20,826 bases of DNA from a virus. Each line of letters opens with the position of its first letter. Position 1 is the first letter of the stretch. The DNA lies in the IMG/VR virus record IMGVR_UViG_3300045115_000139, positions 1 to 20,826 of that record; one strand, given 5' to 3'. The notes under the pieces are model-generated. The model was not told the origin of the DNA. It made no database searches and saw nothing but the letters and a program-made list of their open reading frames with translations. Below are positions 7,266 to 19,184 of the stretch, piece by piece. Position numbers and translations under genes: made by a program.

Positions 7266-7571
7266 ATGCCGACACCGTCGCCCCTCGACGCGCAAGCGTT
7301 GAACGCGTTGCTCCAGACACGCGGCGAAACAGCCTCGTTTCGCGGCGCGTCGGTGTCGGCACTGGTGGATCGCCTCACGCGGCCCGCCCCCATTCCAGGG
7401 CGCGTGGACGCATCCCCAACCGAAGGCGTTACGGTGTGGCTCATGCTCAGCCAAGTGACCGCGCCGCGCCCCGGCGAAATCATCACCGACAGCAACGGCT
7501 TCAAGCTGCGCATCACGCGCAGTGATTTCATTGGGCACTCGTGGCAGTGCCTTTGCTCGACCGACCGATGA
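7266..7571 (+). CDS. Probable head-completion (head closure) protein
   Basis: This 101-aa protein lies between the capsid genes and a tail-completion-like gene. The N-terminal half is helical and variable. The C-terminal half (VTAPRPGEIITDSNGFKLRI) resembles a small beta-rich fold as seen in FII-like connectors. The family is not recognised with certainty; the role is inferred from order. Its start follows the previous stop by only 11 bases (leader ccgccccagcc), and its stop overlaps the next start by ATGA. Confidence 0.55.
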   Translation: MPTPSPLDAQALNALLQTRGETASFRGASVSALVDRLTRPAPIPGRVDASPTEGVTVWLMLSQVTAPRPGEIITDSNGFKLRITRSDFIGHSWQCLCSTDR

Positions 7572-8209
7572 TCCAGATTGACGCCAGCGAAGTCGAGCGC
7601 CTCAACCGCAACTTGCAGGCTTACGTCGCGCTCTCGGGGCGCGCCGCGGATGAAGTCGTGCGCAAGAAAGGCGAAGACCTGCGCATCCAACTGGCGCGCG
7701 AGTTTTTCCGGCAGCGCTGGAAGGGTGGCCGGGGCGTCGCCTGGCGCGAATTCAAGAGACGCGTGAGAGCAGGCGAAGGGACTCTCGTCCGGCTCAAGTC
7801 TGTTTCCTCCCGTTTCCTCGCGGCTTCGGGCAAGGAACTTCCGGCCACCGACAAACGCGGGCGCCCCCTCACATCGTGGCAGCAACTCGTCTGGCAAGAA
7901 ATTGCCCGGCGACAACACGGCGTTGGCGCGCTCGGCGCGACCTTCCTCGTCCACCGCTGGCAGCACAGCGGCGGCGAAAAGAAGCTGGTCGCGAATCGCT
8001 CGCGCCTTTCCGGCAACTACCACAAGCGGGCGCTCGACATCGTGCTGCGCGACGGCGCCTACACGCTCGAGGCCAAGACCCCGGGAATTGCGGCTGTGGG
8101 TAGCCGTTACGGTCTCATCACGAAGGCGCTCGCGAGTGTGAACGCCGACACCGAAAAGTATCTGACGCGCAAGATGGAAGAGGCCGCGAAACTTGCTTTA
8201 CCGAAATGA
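7568..8209 (+). CDS. Probable tail-completion / minor tail protein (gpZ or HK97 gp10-like)
   Basis: This 213-aa protein begins MIQIDASEVERLNRNLQAYV, then GRAADEVVRKKGEDLRIQLA. This helical opening, with a predicted domain of short strands and basic helices, is typical of gp10/gpZ-type proteins that join head and tail. The chain is rich in Arg and Lys, and its C-terminal half (GAYTLEAKTPGIAAVGSRYG) may carry the strand-turn core. It is coupled to the upstream gene by ATGA (start 7568; a GTG at 7541 would overlap more) and to the 33-aa ORF downstream in the same way. The assignment is from position and overall pattern. Confidence 0.55.
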   Translation: MIQIDASEVERLNRNLQAYVALSGRAADEVVRKKGEDLRIQLAREFFRQRWKGGRGVAWREFKRRVRAGEGTLVRLKSVSSRFLAASGKELPATDKRGRPLTSWQQLVWQEIARRQHGVGALGATFLVHRWQHSGGEKKLVANRSRLSGNYHKRALDIVLRDGAYTLEAKTPGIAAVGSRYGLITKALASVNADTEKYLTRKMEEAAKLALPK

Positions 8210-8307
8210 CCTGGTGGTGGCGCATCCTAAAAACGCTGCGGTTCGCCGTGAACGAAAGCGGCGAGTTTCTTGTTGACCAAACCGGCAGGCGCCTGCGCCT
8301 GCACTAA
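8206..8307 (+). CDS. 33-aa coupled small protein of unknown function
   Basis: This ORF starts on the ATGA that ends the previous gene and stops 10 bases before the tail-fibre gene. The peptide has three tryptophans after MT, then basic and polar residues (RILKTLRFAVNESGEFLVDQ), and ends RRLRLH. Its exact coupling, and the fact that it fills the only gap between two structural genes, support real translation, but the length gives little statistical weight. It could serve only to keep ribosomes engaged up to the next gene. Confidence 0.45.
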   Translation: MTWWWRILKTLRFAVNESGEFLVDQTGRRLRLH

Positions 8308-8317
8308 AAAAAACACT

Positions 8318-10273
8318 ATGGGAACTTTCCGTCTCAAAGACGCGCCGAACATCGGCACCGTGGACAGCGCCGAGCGCTTCGTGGTGGACGGCGCCAACGG
8401 CGTGCGATCCATCGCCAAAAGCGATCTGGTCACCGACCTGGCCGCAGTCATCAAAGCCGCGCCGAGCACGTTCAAGCTGGCGACGCTCGATTCGGGGAAC
8501 AAGGTGCCGACGACGCAGTTGCCGGCGAGCCTGAGCGGGTCGCTGAATTACAAGGGAGGGATCGCTGGGGCGAGTGTGCCGGCGACGAGCACGGCCGCCG
8601 GTGATTACTATGTGATCTCGAGCGCGGGGACGAGCCAGAGCAAGACCTGGGCGGTGGGTGACCTGGCGATCTACGAGGGGACGAGCGGGAATTGGTCGCA
8701 GATCGCGGCGGGGGCGGATTTGGCGGCGGTGAACAACTTGAGCGATGTGGCGGATGTGTTCACATCGCTCCAGAATGTGGATGGGGAGCCGCGCGGGGGG
8801 CCGCAGCCGGCGATCATTTTCGATGGGAACACGGCGGTGAACAGCGCGGTGAAGACGCAGTTGGTGGGGCAGCCGCTCGGGACCGGGGATGTGAGCATCT
8901 CGGTGAAGTTCGAGGTGCCGACGGACGCGACGCGGGCGTTCGGGGTGTGTTACCTGGGGGACGGGGCGTCGGGGGACAGCGGCAATTCGCTCTCGATCGA
9001 CATCAGTAGCGGGACGCTGCGGGTCGGGAACAAGGTCTCGAGCACGTATCACTCGAAGACGAGCAGCGGTTTTGTGGTGGCCTACGGGGGGCGCGTGGTG
9101 CGGCTGGATGTGACGCGCGCGGGCAGCGCGATGGCCTGCTACCTGAACGGGGTGTTGTTCTTGAGTGAGACGGACTCGAGTTGGGCGACGAATCTGGGGA
9201 CGAGCCCGTATTTGCAGGTGGGGACGCGGAGCGGCTCGGACACGTTCCTCGGCGAGGTGCATCGGGCGCAGGTGTGGAATCTGGCGCTGACCGCGGCGGA
9301 GGTGAAGATGAACATCCGCACGGGGATTCCGTTCAAGTATCGGTGGGGAACTGCCGTGGATCTGATCAACTCGACGACGCCGACGCTGAACGGCGGGTTC
9401 GAAACGGCGGGCGGCGGCGGGGCGGATGTGTTCGCTTCTTGGGCGGAGGCTGTGGCCGGGACGTCAACGCTGAACGATGAGACTACCGCGTTCCACGGCG
9501 GCGCTCATGCGTGCAGGATGGATATCGACGGCAGCAACAGCCTCGCGCAGGTCAGCCAGCCCCTGCTGACGCTTGGGAAGGCATACCGGGTGGACCTGTG
9601 GGCCAAGTCGTCGAGCGGCACGCCGGACATTAGCATCGGCTGCGCGAGCGGCACGTCCGGGACGCATTATCACATAGTGACGCTGAGTGCGAGCTACGCT
9701 CAGATCACGAAGCGATTCGAAGCGAACAACGCCTCGTTCGTTATCAAGCGGTCCTCGGCGACGGGCCTTTCACTTTATGTGGATGATGTGACGCTGACGC
9801 CAGTCGGCTGCATCTGCGATTTGGATTTTTCGGTGGGCAAAGGGCTGTTTTTCCCGGATCGATCGAGCAACCGTTTCGGGGCGGTGGGTCAAACGACGGT
9901 GAGCCCGGTGCATCGGTTCGAGCGGAATTATGGGAATTACGTGCGCGTGGTGACGTTCGCGCACGGGGATATTTCGGCGACGGCCGCGACGACGAAGCTG
10001 CTGGACTTGCCGCCGAATTGCGCGGTGGAAGAAATCGAGTTTGACCGTGAAGCGGCTTTCGACGCGGGGATTACGCTGGACGTCGGCATCACGGGCACGA
10101 CGGGGAAGTTCGTGAGCGCGCAGGCGGTCGATGCGACCGGGAAGGTGCGGGTGGCGAGCGGCAGCTTGGTGAGCGAGAGCGCGAGCGCGTGGACCTCGGT
10201 GTGGATCAAGAAGAGCGGGTCGACGACGGTGGGGAGCACGAAGGTGCGAGTGGTGGTGAAGATTAGGGGATAA
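8318..10273 (+). CDS. Tail fibre / receptor-binding protein with LamG-like and CBM-like domains
   Basis: This 651-aa protein has a modular adhesin layout. Residues 1-57 (MGTFRLKDAPNIGTVDSAER...) look like a short virion-anchoring segment. Residues 58-150 contain the fibre-type pattern GNKVPTTQLPASLSG and AVGDLAIYEGTSGNWSQIA. About 165-330 form a concanavalin/LamG-like jelly roll. About 350-497 form a carbohydrate-binding-module-like domain (NGGFETAGG ... LYVDDVTLTPVG). The C-terminal 150 residues are a beta-rich end domain. Base composition flips from C-rich to G-rich near codon 58, so the adhesin part may have been acquired. The ATG at 8318 has the leader aaaaaaaacact. Placement before the tail genes is unusual. 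Confidence 0.8.
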   Translation: MGTFRLKDAPNIGTVDSAERFVVDGANGVRSIAKSDLVTDLAAVIKAAPSTFKLATLDSGNKVPTTQLPASLSGSLNYKGGIAGASVPATSTAAGDYYVISSAGTSQSKTWAVGDLAIYEGTSGNWSQIAAGADLAAVNNLSDVADVFTSLQNVDGEPRGGPQPAIIFDGNTAVNSAVKTQLVGQPLGTGDVSISVKFEVPTDATRAFGVCYLGDGASGDSGNSLSIDISSGTLRVGNKVSSTYHSKTSSGFVVAYGGRVVRLDVTRAGSAMACYLNGVLFLSETDSSWATNLGTSPYLQVGTRSGSDTFLGEVHRAQVWNLALTAAEVKMNIRTGIPFKYRWGTAVDLINSTTPTLNGGFETAGGGGADVFASWAEAVAGTSTLNDETTAFHGGAHACRMDIDGSNSLAQVSQPLLTLGKAYRVDLWAKSSSGTPDISIGCASGTSGTHYHIVTLSASYAQITKRFEANNASFVIKRSSATGLSLYVDDVTLTPVGCICDLDFSVGKGLFFPDRSSNRFGAVGQTTVSPVHRFERNYGNYVRVVTFAHGDISATAATTKLLDLPPNCAVEEIEFDREAAFDAGITLDVGITGTTGKFVSAQAVDATGKVRVASGSLVSESASAWTSVWIKKSGSTTVGSTKVRVVVKIRG

Positions 10274-10304: not shown

Positions 10305-10490
10305 ATGAAAACGATCGCAATTGTGACTATCAAGCCCCTCGAGGGCAAAGTGGAATACGGCGTGCAGCAGGACGGCCAATGGCTGGTGCATGGCATCGTG
10401 ATCGCGCTCGAGGTGGGGGCCGACACGATCGGGCACGAGATCATCGCGGCGGCGACGGCGGACGCGGAGGCGCGCGGATTGCTGAGCTAA
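10305..10490 (+). CDS. 61-aa hypothetical protein
   Basis: I do not recognise this protein. It opens with a short strand pair (MKTIAIVTIKPLEGKVEYGV), then VQQDGQWLVHGIVIALEV, and ends in an Ala-rich helix (AAATADAEARGLLS); no membrane segment or signal peptide is evident. It stands between the tail fibre and the probable lysis genes, so it may belong to either group. The leader is the 8-bp repeat array. Confidence 0.6.
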   Translation: MKTIAIVTIKPLEGKVEYGVQQDGQWLVHGIVIALEVGADTIGHEIIAAATADAEARGLLS

Positions 10491-10504: not shown

Positions 10505-10789
10505 ATGGAGCGAAAGGCACCATTCTTGGAGCGGTTGAACAGCGGGTTCGGCGCTGTCGCCGCTGCCACCGCGATCCTGGCTGCGATTGGCGCCCCGTTC
10601 GTCGCGTTCTACCGCATCCAATCGCTCGAAGCCGGGCAGATCGAGCTTCGCGCTGCGTATAAGGAGATCGACAAAAAGCTTCAGGCCACACGGGAAGACG
10701 CCCTCCTGATCGGCTCCAAACTCGACGCCATCCAGAGCGAGATCAAGCGCCTGAGTGGCTTGCTCGACGACCAGAAAAAGCGCCCATGA
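10505..10789 (+). CDS. Membrane-anchored coiled-coil protein, candidate inner-membrane spanin or holin-associated protein
   Basis: This 94-aa protein has a short basic N-terminus, one hydrophobic segment at about 15-36 (FGAVAAATAILAAIGAPFVA), then a charged heptad-rich helix to the end (residues 40-90). That is the architecture of i-spanins (Rz) and of XhlA-like holin partners. The next gene, coupled by ATGA, encodes a lipoprotein, which strengthens a spanin-type reading. aggag lies four bases before the ATG, one of the few Shine-Dalgarno-like starts here. No endolysin or clear holin is visible in the window, so the lysis assignment is an inference. Confidence 0.55.
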   Translation: MERKAPFLERLNSGFGAVAAATAILAAIGAPFVAFYRIQSLEAGQIELRAAYKEIDKKLQATREDALLIGSKLDAIQSEIKRLSGLLDDQKKRP

Positions 10790-11532
10790 GAGCCATCCTC
10801 GCATGTGTTGTCTTCGCGCTGCTGCTCACCGGCTGCACGTTCGCGCGCCAAAAGCAGGCCAAGGCAACTGAGGCCTTGGCCGGCAACCATGCCGCGCTCG
10901 ACGAGCAGAGCCGCGCATTGACGACCGGAGTGGTGGACTCGCTGAGCCTGGCCCCGACCAATCCACCGACGGCCCTGGCCCTTGACCTGGCCAAGCGGGA
11001 TCAGATCATCGAGGGTCTCCCAACGAACCGCATCGACGTGCCGTCCATCCTGGCGGGCGTCAAAACGGCTCAGGACGCGCTGGACGCTCGGTTCCGCTCC
11101 ATTGACACGCTCCTGGCCCAGAAAGCCACGCTGGAAGCCAGCCTGCGCGCAGCCGAGGCAAAATTGATCGAGATGGGTCGGCTCTATGAGGCTGAGCGCA
11201 ACCGGGGAATTCTGCGGCGAATCTGGAGTGGCGTCATCGGTGCGCTCGGCCTCGGTGGTGTCATCGCGCTGGTGATGCTGTGCCCCGCGTTGTTGCCCCT
11301 CGCCGGGCGGCTCGTTGGGGCCATCGTCGCCAAACTCCCGAGCCTCGCGGGTTACCTCGGCCTGGTCTCGCACCGGGCGTTCGATTCCGTCGTCAAAGGC
11401 GTGGGCGAAGTCCGCGCGGCGCTCGACAAGTCGAGCGCCTTCCGCCAGCAGCTTGACAACGAACTGCTCAAAGCCACCGACGAAGATCACCGCCGCCTCA
11501 TCGACGCGCGCCGCGCCGTCCTCAATGTGTGA
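10786..11532 (+). CDS. Lipoprotein with internal membrane segment (u-spanin-like candidate)
   Basis: This 248-aa protein has an N-terminal signal with lipobox LLTGC and lipidated Cys17. The residue after Cys is Thr, which favours the outer membrane. A helical, probably coiled-coil segment covers about 92-140. A hydrophobic stretch at about 148-185 (GLGGVIALVMLCPALLPLAG and following) can span a membrane once or twice. A charged C-terminus of about 60 residues follows. An outer-membrane lipid anchor plus an inner-membrane helix in one chain is the plan of unimolecular spanins such as T1 gp11, although those end at the membrane helix. Coupling to the coiled-coil membrane gene upstream fits a lysis role. 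It is not proven; it could also be a structural or exclusion lipoprotein. Confidence 0.6.
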   Translation: MRAILACVVFALLLTGCTFARQKQAKATEALAGNHAALDEQSRALTTGVVDSLSLAPTNPPTALALDLAKRDQIIEGLPTNRIDVPSILAGVKTAQDALDARFRSIDTLLAQKATLEASLRAAEAKLIEMGRLYEAERNRGILRRIWSGVIGALGLGGVIALVMLCPALLPLAGRLVGAIVAKLPSLAGYLGLVSHRAFDSVVKGVGEVRAALDKSSAFRQQLDNELLKATDEDHRRLIDARRAVLNV

Positions 11533-12041
11533 TCCTCGACGACTTCCAAGCCGGCATCGTCAACGCGCTCAAGGACGACGCGTATTTCACGCGGTCACCC
11601 GCGGTGCCGGTCTTTGCCGAGGACCAACCGCAAGCGCACAAGGACGCGGCGGACGCGCTCGGGCAAGTCGGAATCGTAGTGCTGGCGGGCGAGCCAGTGG
11701 TGAGCATCGGCGATTATCGCGACAAGATCATGATGCAATGCACGGTCGCGCTGATCGAGAATACGGACCTGAATCGCGGCCAATCGGGCACCGGACGCAA
11801 GGCCCGGCAACTCGGGCTCAAAGCCTGGGCGCTCCTGCACGAGCGAATGCTCGGCCTGATCGAGTTGCGTTGCGCGAGCCTGCAACAAGCGGCGGCGGGC
11901 GAGGGCCTCGTCGTCTGGGAGCTTGAGGTGCGCGCGGATTTCCCTTTCGCGGTCATCAAGACCTTGCTCGTGGATCAAAACGACGCGGGCGCAGCCGATC
12001 AAAACGGCAACATAGGAGAGTATCAACCGACAGAACCTTAG
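11529..12041 (+). CDS. Probable tail terminator protein (gpU-like)
   Basis: This 170-aa protein starts with GTG in a GTGA overlap with the lipoprotein gene. A helical N-terminus (ILDDFQAGIVNALKDDAYF) is followed by strands (VGIVVLAGEPVV, KIMMQCTVALIEN) and a helix with KARQLGLKAWALLHERMLG. This pattern matches tail terminator/minor tail protein U-type folds that cap the tail tube. It directly precedes the presumed tube gene, as in lambda (U then V). The last 20 residues are polar and probably disordered. Confidence 0.6.
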   Translation: MILDDFQAGIVNALKDDAYFTRSPAVPVFAEDQPQAHKDAADALGQVGIVVLAGEPVVSIGDYRDKIMMQCTVALIENTDLNRGQSGTGRKARQLGLKAWALLHERMLGLIELRCASLQQAAAGEGLVVWELEVRADFPFAVIKTLLVDQNDAGAADQNGNIGEYQPTEP

Positions 12042-15629: not shown

Positions 15630-18600
15630 GTGGTCACCTTTCCCCGAGCGCCGATTGTCGGAGCGGGTGACGCCGTCGTCAGCACGCAGTTAGCTGGCCT
15701 GGCCAACGCCGCCAACGTCCGGTTGCGCTCAGGACTGGGCAACGGTTCACGGCGCATCCGCTCGTGGCTGTACTCTCTGTTTCGGAATCTCCGCAACGGC
15801 TCGGGGACTCTCACACCATCGGACTTCGAGTTCTTCTCGTTCTACGCTCACGTTGACCCATCGGTTGCCCAGTATCCGCCGGCGGGACCGGGCGAGGAGG
15901 AGGGGACCAACGTCAACAATCCGATGGGCGCTTTCGTGTTCGGCAACGAGGGTGCCGACATCTTCGACGAGGAAAGCAGAGTAAGCGATCCGCCGTCCGG
16001 TGGGATGCCGTTCACTATCGGTTTGCATGTGCCGACGAAGCTCGGCGACATCTGGCAGCTTGGCAAAGCGCAGCGCGGTGCGGTGGCCCCCGACGGCACA
16101 GCGGCTTACCCGGCGATCAGCGCGGGGCGGTCGGCCTACTGGATCAGCTATTCAACGCGCTCCATTTGGGGGAACAGCTATGGCGGGTTCATCGCGGCTC
16201 CCATGCTCGGCCCGGCGTGCGATGATCCGGGGACCGGCCCACCGCCGAACTACCAGATTTTTTTCACGGCCAAGCCGGGCAGTGGCAAGCCAGACAAGGT
16301 CTATGATGGGACGTGTGAGCCGGTGCCGGCGGGTGAGCCTTACCCGACACACATCGCTCAACTCATCACGACCCCTTGGTCGTGGATCGTGATTCTGAAC
16401 AACGGAACGGTCGATGTGCTGAGCACGAACGATTACGTTCAGGGGCCCTACACGGGGTCCGTGCATCTGCGGCGGGCAACGGCGGGGCACATCGGGCGCG
16501 TCATTCACGCTTTCTGCCGAGAATTCCGGGGCAGCGACACTCAGAGGGCTGAGCCGGGTTATCACATCCAGGAGAGCTTCAACTTCGATGCGTTCTTGCG
16601 CGCTCAGTATTTCCTCGCGCCCCAGCGTGGACACCTCGACGGCGAGGGAATCATGTCTGATTATCGGCGCTTTTACCTGCCGGTGACGGCTGGGGCGGTG
16701 CGCGATGGAGCGACGAGCGCGGTCGAGACCTGGGAGCCCGGCTACGTTCTCACGCACGTCTATGTCCGGGCCGAAGGCATGACCGGGACGGGGACCGTCA
16801 AGGTGCTGGTGGACGGGACGACGGCGGCTACCGCTCTGTTGACCGCCGATGCTGACGGGCTCGGGGATGACATCGTCTATGTGCCGACGCTTCCGGCGGG
16901 CAAGCGCGTGTCGATTCAAGCGGCTGGGGCCATCGTCTGCGCCTCTCTCTACGCTGAGGGGACGGAGCTACTCCCCTGGCTGCCGCAAGAGTCGGATCAA
17001 TACTTGGTGCTTCGGGCGACCACGGGGCACGATGGGAATTGGCAGGATGGCCTGGGGACGCAGGAGAGTGGGGCGAAGGACGCCTGGGACAATTACGTCC
17101 GTTACGGCTGCATCCTCAACAGCTACGATTCGCCGGGCCTGTTCGGGCAACTGGTCGAGGTCAACACGAATGCGGTGTTCGATGCCGCGCGGCGGTACTC
17201 GAAGTACGTCCGGTGCGTGACCCGCAACAATCTGTTGGGCTACGGAGTCACGAACGGCAAGAGCGAAATCTACCTCTCGCGCTGGCTCACGTTCGATGGC
17301 GTGACGGTCGATGTGTTGGATGGGATTGCCCCGGCTGCGGGGGCCGTAGCGTCCGGGAGCATAGCATGGGGCGTGCGCTACGTGGTGCGGTCGGGTTCCA
17401 TCGAGTATGCCGGGCACGGCTATGGCGCAGGCCAGCCATTCACGGGGCTGCGTGGTAAGAAGGATTACACGGGCTCGGGTGCGGTCTATGAGTATGACGG
17501 GATTCGAGCGACCGCGCCCCAACAGGGCGAGACGAACGAATGGTTGTTCGAGATCGAGAGCAAAGCGTACTGGTACGCCGAAGGCTCGCCGTTCAACCCG
17601 GAGAATTACGCTGACCGATACGCGCTCGTGAACCGTTGTCATTTCGGGCTCGATTTGCTGCTCAAGAAAGATGAGAAGTGGCACATCAATTACGGCGACC
17701 GCTGGGCGGTGCAACCTGACAGCGTGGACGCCTACAACTACATCAGCGGCTTCAACGCGTCGGCGGTCGAGAACGATTACAGAGGATGCCGACTCTACGA
17801 GACGCCGGGTGAGATCGAGTCTGCAACGGTGGTGACCTGGCAGGGGGTCGAGTGCATCAAGCTCGTGCTCAAGAATCGGCTCTACAGCACGTACGGTGAG
17901 ACGGGCGGCGCACCCGACACCGTGGACGCGACCGACTACAGTGACTCCGTGGTTGCGGCAATTCGTGCGGAGCCACATCGGACGCCGGAGAACACGTTGC
18001 GCGAGTATCTCGCGTTGCTGGCGCGGGGAAAAAACTGCGACTCGTCGAGCGAGATCGGACGGCGGATGAAGCCCGGCGACTATGCGACCGGGACAGAGCC
18101 CGCGAGTAGCGATACAATGCTTGGGTGGGACATCTTCGGCGCGTGCTTCCCGACGATCTGGTTAACCAAGCTCGTCCCGAAGCCGTACGACGACGGCAAC
18201 GACAAGCCGGACACGCACGACACCAGGATTGTGCATGACCCCATGACGCAGCTTGACCTTTACCTCCGGGCGATGGTCGAGGGTTACATTGCGGGCCGGT
18301 CAAGCGTAGCAGAGGCGTGTGACTGGCTGGACGGATGGGATGCTTACGACTACACATGGGACTCAGCCTGCTTCGAGGCATTCGGCAATTCATGGATCGG
18401 ACCGTTGCCGGACTCGCTCAGGCCGGATCAAGCAGAGGGCCACGGCCCGATGCCGACGACTCAGTTGTGGGCCGAAGTGTTCAACCGCTACTCGAAAATC
18501 TTGAACCTCTTGGACACGGTGCGCGTGGTCCTGCCTTACAAGGTCGAGGAACAGATCACGACGTATTCCGACGCAGAACCGATAGCCGGGGATGTGGGGC

Positions 18601-19184
18601 CGGACTGCGACGCGAGCAACACGGGCTGCGGTGCGAATGGTAAGGTGGCCTGGCAGGGCATAGGTCCGGCATCCGTGACCGTGACGAACGTAGGTCCCTG
18701 GGGTGACCTCGTGCAGGCGTACACGCAGGGCCAAACGTACGTCGAGTTCAGTGATAACTGCGACGTGGACCCCTCGAAATGGAGCTTGGTGACAAACCGG
18801 ATCGTGTCGCAATTCCGCATCGCGCTCGTGGACCCCGATGCTCTTTATGCCGTGCCGGAGCTTTGGCGGGACATGATCGACGGCTACGGCGCGGTCCTGG
18901 GCGTGCTCGAGACGCTGAGCTACTCGCAGGTGGCCATCGATGGGACGCCGCCAACGGAATGCTTTGGCGGCGACTTTGGCGGGTGTTACCTGGCGGACCA
19001 TTACTGGGAAAACTCGCAGGAATGCGTCATCATGCGGGCCGGGACATTGGACGGGGACCAGCCACGGAAGGCGTGGCACACGTTCTGCAAGCAACCCGGC
19101 TGGGGCAAGGGCGGTTACTGGCGGCAGATCGCGTTGACCCCGAAGGCGACCCCGGGATGGTATCTCAAGGTGCCGATCACATGA
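15630..19184 (+). CDS. Very large virion protein, probable tail tip / receptor-binding protein
   Basis: At 1184 aa this is the largest gene in the window and is last but one in the tail cluster, the place of host-specificity proteins (lambda gpJ). It lacks visible fibronectin repeats, hydrolase motifs or other known domains. The N-terminal 60 residues (APIVGAGDAVVSTQLAGLAN, then SRRIRSWLYSLFRNLRNG) may be a virion-attachment helix. The rest is rich in Tyr, Trp, Gly and Asp, with many cysteines. From about 15.9 kb the coding strand becomes G-rich, unlike the C-rich head genes, as in the tail fibre. Start is GTG at 15630 (MVTFPRAPIVG). The stop overlaps the next ATG by ATGA. Confidence 0.7.
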   Translation: MVTFPRAPIVGAGDAVVSTQLAGLANAANVRLRSGLGNGSRRIRSWLYSLFRNLRNGSGTLTPSDFEFFSFYAHVDPSVAQYPPAGPGEEEGTNVNNPMGAFVFGNEGADIFDEESRVSDPPSGGMPFTIGLHVPTKLGDIWQLGKAQRGAVAPDGTAAYPAISAGRSAYWISYSTRSIWGNSYGGFIAAPMLGPACDDPGTGPPPNYQIFFTAKPGSGKPDKVYDGTCEPVPAGEPYPTHIAQLITTPWSWIVILNNGTVDVLSTNDYVQGPYTGSVHLRRATAGHIGRVIHAFCREFRGSDTQRAEPGYHIQESFNFDAFLRAQYFLAPQRGHLDGEGIMSDYRRFYLPVTAGAVRDGATSAVETWEPGYVLTHVYVRAEGMTGTGTVKVLVDGTTAATALLTADADGLGDDIVYVPTLPAGKRVSIQAAGAIVCASLYAEGTELLPWLPQESDQYLVLRATTGHDGNWQDGLGTQESGAKDAWDNYVRYGCILNSYDSPGLFGQLVEVNTNAVFDAARRYSKYVRCVTRNNLLGYGVTNGKSEIYLSRWLTFDGVTVDVLDGIAPAAGAVASGSIAWGVRYVVRSGSIEYAGHGYGAGQPFTGLRGKKDYTGSGAVYEYDGIRATAPQQGETNEWLFEIESKAYWYAEGSPFNPENYADRYALVNRCHFGLDLLLKKDEKWHINYGDRWAVQPDSVDAYNYISGFNASAVENDYRGCRLYETPGEIESATVVTWQGVECIKLVLKNRLYSTYGETGGAPDTVDATDYSDSVVAAIRAEPHRTPENTLREYLALLARGKNCDSSSEIGRRMKPGDYATGTEPASSDTMLGWDIFGACFPTIWLTKLVPKPYDDGNDKPDTHDTRIVHDPMTQLDLYLRAMVEGYIAGRSSVAEACDWLDGWDAYDYTWDSACFEAFGNSWIGPLPDSLRPDQAEGHGPMPTTQLWAEVFNRYSKILNLLDTVRVVLPYKVEEQITTYSDAEPIAGDVGPDCDASNTGCGANGKVAWQGIGPASVTVTNVGPWGDLVQAYTQGQTYVEFSDNCDVDPSKWSLVTNRIVSQFRIALVDPDALYAVPELWRDMIDGYGAVLGVLETLSYSQVAIDGTPPTECFGGDFGGCYLADHYWENSQECVIMRAGTLDGDQPRKAWHTFCKQPGWGKGGYWRQIALTPKATPGWYLKVPIT

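Follow-up and report, generated by a model that had tools for sequence, protein, structure and literature searches.

A predicted lipoprotein with an internal membrane helix, preceded by a small membrane protein: a candidate spanin-like pair in two phages

The window, meaning the whole stretch of DNA analyzed here, is an entire virus record of 20,826 bases and is probably a fragment. It begins 216 bases 5' of the small-terminase gene and contains genes for the small and large terminase, portal, protease, coat, tail proteins, tape measure, and a very long protein, with a repressor gene at its right end. No integrase or replication genes were recognized in the 20,826 bases. The 1184-aa tail-region protein encoded at 15630-19184 has no PHROG match at E <= 0.1. 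The terminase, portal, protease, coat, and tape-measure proteins match those of P8625, a phage of Puniceicoccales, at 22-41% identity. However, for the terminase and protease other phages are equally good or better matches, so that assigning the host to the Verrucomicrobiota is no more than a guess.

A block of about 3.3 kb between the genes at 7541-8209 and 11529-12041 carries a fibre gene, a small ORF, and a pair of genes for a membrane protein and a lipoprotein:
8270..10273, + strand: fibre-like protein with LamG (concanavalin A-like, PF13385) and carbohydrate-binding (PF02018) domains, first gene of the block that holds the pair
10305..10490, + strand: 61-aa ORF between the fibre gene and the pair, no family, gene-like GC by codon position
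10505..10789, + strand: 94-aa membrane protein with a helix at residues 15-38, a helical tail with a heptad pattern, no cysteine, and AGGAG ahead of its ATG
10786..11532, + strand: 248-aa predicted lipoprotein with an internal membrane helix and a C-terminal tail (from the ORF, DG scores, and comparison with a relative)
10786..10836, + strand: signal sequence and lipobox LLTGC of the lipoprotein, residues 1-17, with Thr at +2 (from the sequence)
10933..11052, + strand: conserved periplasmic stretch, residues 50-89, with LAPTN, LALD, and RIDV motifs, 60% identical to the relative
11221..11295, + strand: predicted membrane helix, residues 146-170 (from the DG score)
11296..11529, + strand: tail beyond the membrane, residues 171-248 (from alignment with the relative)

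In the fibre-like protein the LamG domain scored above its cut-off (E 1.4e-9) and the carbohydrate-binding domain under its cut-off (E 7.7e-5). Both ORFs of the pair have the same codon-position GC pattern as the neighbouring genes. The lipoprotein gene lies in tandem with the late structural genes, on the same strand, and overlaps its neighbour by 4 bases at both sides. An earlier note on this DNA described the pair as coupled. The 4-base ATGA overlap between the two ORFs is indeed present, but such overlaps are ordinary in the window, where they occur at 5 of 20 gene junctions. The same note remarked on the lack of a neighbouring endolysin, and none was recognized anywhere in the window.

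The lipoprotein combines a lipobox, one internal membrane helix, and a long tail. The lipobox LLTGC reported earlier is present at residues 13-17, with Cys17 as the predicted site of lipidation. Membrane helices were scored as DG with our own implementation of the Hessa scale, and on this scale residues 146-170 form a helix (DG -0.69). The hydrophobic segment had been placed at about 148-185 and read as more than one helix. The plural is unsupported, because only 146-170 scores as a helix; residues 171-194, the other hydrophobic segment, have an amphipathic character, and 172-194 scores DG +3.4. A long tail does exist as proposed, although it has 78 residues after the helix and not about 60. 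It consists of the amphipathic stretch, an AFDSVVKGVG motif at 195-213, and a C-terminal motif (ELLK, TD, RRAVL). The coiled coil also proposed for the lipoprotein has no statistical support. In a crude heptad test the pattern in the middle of the protein was equalled by 13% of shuffles (42% for the relative described below) and is not significant. An AlphaFold2 model of low confidence (mean pLDDT 49.6) has helices at 2-55, 61-75, 85-165, 167-180, and 196-246, with its best blocks at 101-130 (pLDDT 72-77). Besides Cys17, the only cysteine of the mature protein is residue 166, which is inside the membrane helix (172 in the relative). Among 27 lipobox ORFs (copies included, all loci examined), only this lipoprotein and its relative have a later membrane helix. 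The same scan on phage T1 returned its annotated u-spanin alone.

The charges favour neither orientation of the helix. Provided that the lipoprotein has a single membrane helix, its tail would lie in the cytoplasm. By the lipoprotein sorting rules of E. coli, the outer membrane is the presumptive location of the lipoprotein.

The small protein upstream had been called a coiled-coil membrane protein. Its membrane helix (residues 15-38, DG -0.37) is clear, and its heptad pattern is equalled by only 1.7% of shuffles. However, the heptad pattern of the corresponding protein in the related phage is equalled by 22% of shuffles. The structure model of the small protein is a single helix from 6 to 92 with a pLDDT of 67.1.

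A relative of the lipoprotein, with a similar small membrane protein in front, is present in one other phage contig, G001 (IMGVR_UViG_3300009553_000007, 41,145 b). This contig has identical ends of 123 bases, and its terminase gene continues from one into the other; the genome, about 41.0 kb long, is therefore probably complete. Its relevant features are:
24497-25639: fibre
25695-26117: secreted 140-aa protein directly upstream of the pair, without a family match
26246-26539: small membrane protein
26536-27339: lipoprotein
28457-29650: integrase on the opposite strand, with small ORFs between the lipoprotein and the integrase
30500-30955, minus strand: second lipoprotein (LTGC) upstream of the integrase, with no adjacent membrane partner
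32397-32648: 83-aa ORF with a single helix, beyond the integrase

The pair in G001 comes after the fibre gene and the tail gene run and before the integrase, where the late genes end. This is a common position for lysis genes. The location between fibre and tail genes, which had been considered odd, is thus found in the window but not in G001. The secreted 140-aa protein is possibly a novel endolysin or a lysis helper, and the second lipoprotein is possibly a moron.

The two lipoproteins are 43% identical overall, and conservation is concentrated in two regions. The G001 protein has 267 aa. Its lipobox is ASGC at 23-26, in which Ala at -3 deviates from the strict consensus, and its helix at 155-179 (DG -1.2) is followed by a tail of 88 residues. 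Besides the signal sequence and this helix, no stretch scores under DG +5.2. The span from the cysteine to the predicted helix is 129 residues in both proteins. The alignment is gap-free from Cys17 to residue 141, whereas gaps interrupt the signal sequence, the vicinity of the helix, and the tail. In window numbering, identity is 38% in the signal sequence (6/16), 33% in residues 17-49, 60% in 50-89, 25% in 90-141, 30% in the helix region, 54% in 171-194, 74% in 195-213 (14/19), and 49% in 214-248, which includes 10 gap columns. The best conserved part is the motif just beyond the membrane (195-213), suggesting that more than tethering is selected. The two phages have thus retained a span of constant length together with two conserved patches, which would lie on opposite sides of the membrane if the predicted topology is correct.

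The small proteins are less similar. They have 94 (window) and 97 aa (G001), occupy the same position 5' of the lipoprotein gene, share the ATGA overlap, and have a hydrophobic helix, which is clear in the window and marginal in G001 (DG +1.9). Both lack cysteine. Their identity is 20%; the local alignment score was reached by 73 of 1000 shuffles and the global score by 1 of 1000, so the similarity is weak.

Database searches found no further members of the family. No library family matched the lipoprotein or the small protein. A weak PHROG match of the lipoprotein to phrog_1119 (Cor, E 0.044) covers only residues 1-28, the signal sequence. Matches to chorismate mutase (NCBIfam, E 0.002, far under the cut-off), LmuA (PADLOC, E 0.007), and ribosomal protein L17 (PDB, E 0.06) likely reflect helix composition and were rejected. 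The viral_contigs collection was searched with single proteins, a two-row profile, and DNA patterns made for two motifs, and G001 was the sole relative; the other 25 of 26 stretches returned by one pattern scan were judged to be chance, and the small protein as query had no match. In genome_contigs neither the lipoprotein profile (A1) nor a terminase profile had a match, and there was none among plasmids. In phages, tblastn at E <= 1 gave no match to either protein of the window pair, and the G001 lipoprotein matched seven mycobacterial helicases (E 0.08-0.3), which were rejected. The lipoprotein profile was also run against 47 records (45 of 80 loci, plus T1 and P8625). A single match of 36 residues and 10 bits was judged to be chance, and neither T1 nor L034, a phage contig discussed below, was matched. 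The earlier suggestion to look for the pair in other phages therefore yielded one comparable pair, and the lipoprotein family has two members, both from metagenome-type records.

The lysis genes of G001 likely lie in the cluster that ends its late region, because some lysis proteins must exist. No holin, Rz/spanin, or peptidoglycan hydrolase was recognized in G001 by Pfam (41 and 45 ORFs; 17 and 3 families). The PHROG scan of the 41 ORFs covered the best 25 of 61 families, and ten chosen ORFs were scanned singly. The holin family PF23987 is absent from G000 and G001, and the Rz family PF03245 was found in neither of these two records at E <= 1. A separate canonical spanin pair elsewhere in the genome had been named as a finding that would count against a spanin role; as to G001, there is no Rz match and the other lipoprotein has no adjacent membrane partner. 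A strict helix threshold, which would also miss the holin of L034, shows no other membrane protein in G001, whereas a looser one reveals the 83-aa ORF at 32397-32648 along with weak segments of structural proteins and of spare ORFs.

The pair resembles both known types of spanin and fits neither. As described in a 2018 survey (PMC6139136), o-spanins are outer-membrane lipoproteins, and u-spanins are lipoproteins defined by an added membrane helix. Periplasmic cysteine is absent from all 58 u-spanins surveyed, and 507 of 528 two-component systems have cysteine in at least one partner (PMC6139136). Both lipoproteins described here have an N-terminal lipoprotein signal and no periplasmic cysteine, as in u-spanins. 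Phage T1 gp11 (AY216660, 43581-43982), scored in the same way as a yardstick, has 133 aa, a helix at 108-126, and a 7-residue tail. It shares with the present proteins the N-terminal lipobox, the periplasmic span, and an inner-membrane helix in one chain, again with no periplasmic cysteine. In contrast, the present lipoproteins are longer (248-267 aa), and 78 (window) or 88 (G001) residues follow the helix, with the best conserved motif in this tail. The span of gp11-type u-spanins is mostly beta (PMC6139136), whereas that of the window protein is predicted to be helical by a low-confidence model. T1 gp11 stands beside a pinholin and a SAR endolysin and has no partner, while here there is a small membrane partner and no recognized lysis neighbour. 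A C-terminal helix is a defining feature of u-spanins. The helix here is not C-terminal, so the lipoprotein is not filed as a u-spanin, but at somewhat less than an even chance it works like a spanin.

Similarly, the gene arrangement resembles that of Rz/Rz1, LysB/LysC, and PseT.3/PseT.2, in which a small membrane protein with a helix and a helical tail is followed by an overlapping lipoprotein gene. The small protein would correspond to the type II inner-membrane partner of such pairs if its orientation is N-in/C-out. The lipoprotein here differs in being long and having its own membrane helix, neither partner in the window or G001 has a periplasmic cysteine, and PF03245 is absent. The helix and the lack of cysteine argue against classifying it as a two-component o-spanin. 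The earlier proposal of a mixed or new spanin arrangement has partial support, in that it agrees with the anatomy, the 129-residue span, and the partner kept in G001. The survey found no spanins in 91 of 677 genomes and by its own statement leaves out other spanin topologies (PMC6139136). No spanin with such a tail, and no account of lysis by verrucomicrobial phages, was found in literature titles and abstract openings.

The explanation favoured here, tentatively and at somewhat less than an even chance, is that the lipoprotein is a late-expressed spanin-like lysis protein that joins the outer and inner membranes and works like T1 gp11. From anatomy and gene position only, we infer lipidation, location, partner contact, timing, and lysis. 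After export, the lipoprotein would receive its lipid on Cys17 and, as Thr at +2 suggests, be transferred to the outer membrane. Its helix at 146-170 would stay in the inner membrane, and the roughly 129 residues between, mostly helical, would bridge the periplasm through the peptidoglycan mesh. After degradation of the wall, the bridges would collapse, fusing or tearing the outer membrane. The small membrane protein, translated immediately ahead of the lipoprotein, would be the inner-membrane partner and may align with the helical stalk or keep the lipoprotein inactive. The conserved tail would gate this collapse or interact with a partner from the phage or the host.

Several established features of the sequence, conserved in two phages, favour this explanation. 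The lipobox, the one internal helix, the fixed 129-residue span, and the lack of periplasmic cysteine are found in both members, and in both phages the small membrane protein precedes with the same overlap. In addition, the pair of G001 is at the end of the late genes, in a genome with no recognized holin, Rz, or hydrolase. Two membrane-helix ORFs of P8625, gp27 and gp28 (L117:20244-20797), also follow a LamG fibre gene; they are annotated as hypothetical and are likely the lysis genes of that verrucomicrobial phage. On the other hand, the helix is not C-terminal, the middle is predicted to be helical, and no endolysin was recognized in G001 or the window. U-spanins need no partner, two-component spanins nearly always have cysteine, the similarity of the small proteins is weak, and the membrane helix of the small G001 protein is marginal. 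G001 also has the unpaired lipoprotein and the 83-aa ORF elsewhere, and another lysis cassette may lie left of the window.

This last point comes from L034, the closest terminase relative (57% terminase identity), which has the following candidates directly upstream of its small-terminase gene or beside them:
8956-9564: ORF with a PF23987 holin domain (residues 2-52, E 2.4e-16) followed by an ALPSGC lipobox (Cys79), found in L035 and L036 too; it lies, together with a small membrane protein, directly upstream of the small-terminase gene
8187-8615: Agglutinin_C protein (PF18021, E 3.7e-6) beside the holin

The ORF at 8956-9564 may encode a holin fused to a lipoprotein, or it may hold an internal start from which the lipoprotein is made separately, giving two proteins. 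The Agglutinin_C protein is possibly an unusual wall-degrading enzyme. As in the window, a small membrane protein is followed by a lipobox-bearing ORF in the same terminase lineage, but the L034 genes are upstream of the small terminase, include a holin domain, and do not match the lipoprotein profile. By analogy, the window's phage may have a lysis cassette left of the window start.

If it does, the pair could have a different role, of which superinfection exclusion is the most likely. Cor and Llp are examples of phage lipoproteins that act in this way. As an exclusion system or another kind of moron, the pair would reside in the envelope of the infected or lysogenic cell and prevent other phages from adsorbing or delivering their DNA, with the tail binding an entry factor. 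The signal-sequence match to Cor points in this direction, although no profile match extends beyond the signal sequence. The block is also missing at the matching point in L034 and P8625, where similar-sized genes adjoin in similar order, consistent with an insertion; this comparison is of gene order and size only, as those small genes have no sequence match at E <= 0.01. However, the genes are in tandem with the late structural genes, follow the late genes in G001 as well, and gave nothing convincing in the PADLOC search, so this explanation is considered unlikely.

An ordinary two-component pair is improbable. In such a pair the small protein would be the i-spanin and the lipoprotein the o-spanin, with the hydrophobic stretch as a membrane-proximal fusion element and the tail in the periplasm. 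Gene order, overlap, and type of partner match overlapped i-/o-spanin pairs, and residues 171-194 are amphipathic. However, 146-170 and 155-179 score as membrane helices (DG -0.7 and -1.2), the added helix marks u-spanins and not o-spanins (PMC6139136), and no periplasmic cysteine is present in either partner. A combined holin and spanin, in which the lipoprotein helix and amphipathic stretch together with the small protein also make the inner-membrane hole, is quite improbable. It would account for the lack of a separate holin family in G001 and the window, and L034 has a holin domain and a lipobox in one ORF. However, family models often miss holins, at least one more ORF with a single helix occurs in G001, and the L034 ORF may be two proteins, with no match in L034 to the lipoprotein profile. 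A virion or tail component or adsorption factor, its lipid anchor and helix helping the tail to attach to or cross the envelope, is very unlikely: the genes follow a fibre gene in both phages, but a signal sequence with a lipobox points to a protein that is exported and lipidated in the envelope of the host, the G001 genes come after the tail gene run, and no structural family matches.

A more far-reaching and rather unlikely reading is a gated-bridge class of spanins. One lipoprotein would connect both membranes through its constant 129-residue stalk, and a conserved domain across the inner membrane would, with the small partner, sense holin triggering or itself open the inner membrane, so that a single chain couples the rupture of the two membranes. 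In the spanins surveyed, the inner-membrane helix is at one end of the chain or missing (PMC6139136), so they appear to offer little with which to read the cytoplasm. A conserved tail beyond the helix would, if the model is true, point to a way of controlling outer-membrane disruption from the cytoplasmic side. The pair is a concrete candidate for a topology outside the survey criteria (PMC6139136) and, if confirmed, would provide a template with which to look for lysis genes in phages whose hosts have received little study.
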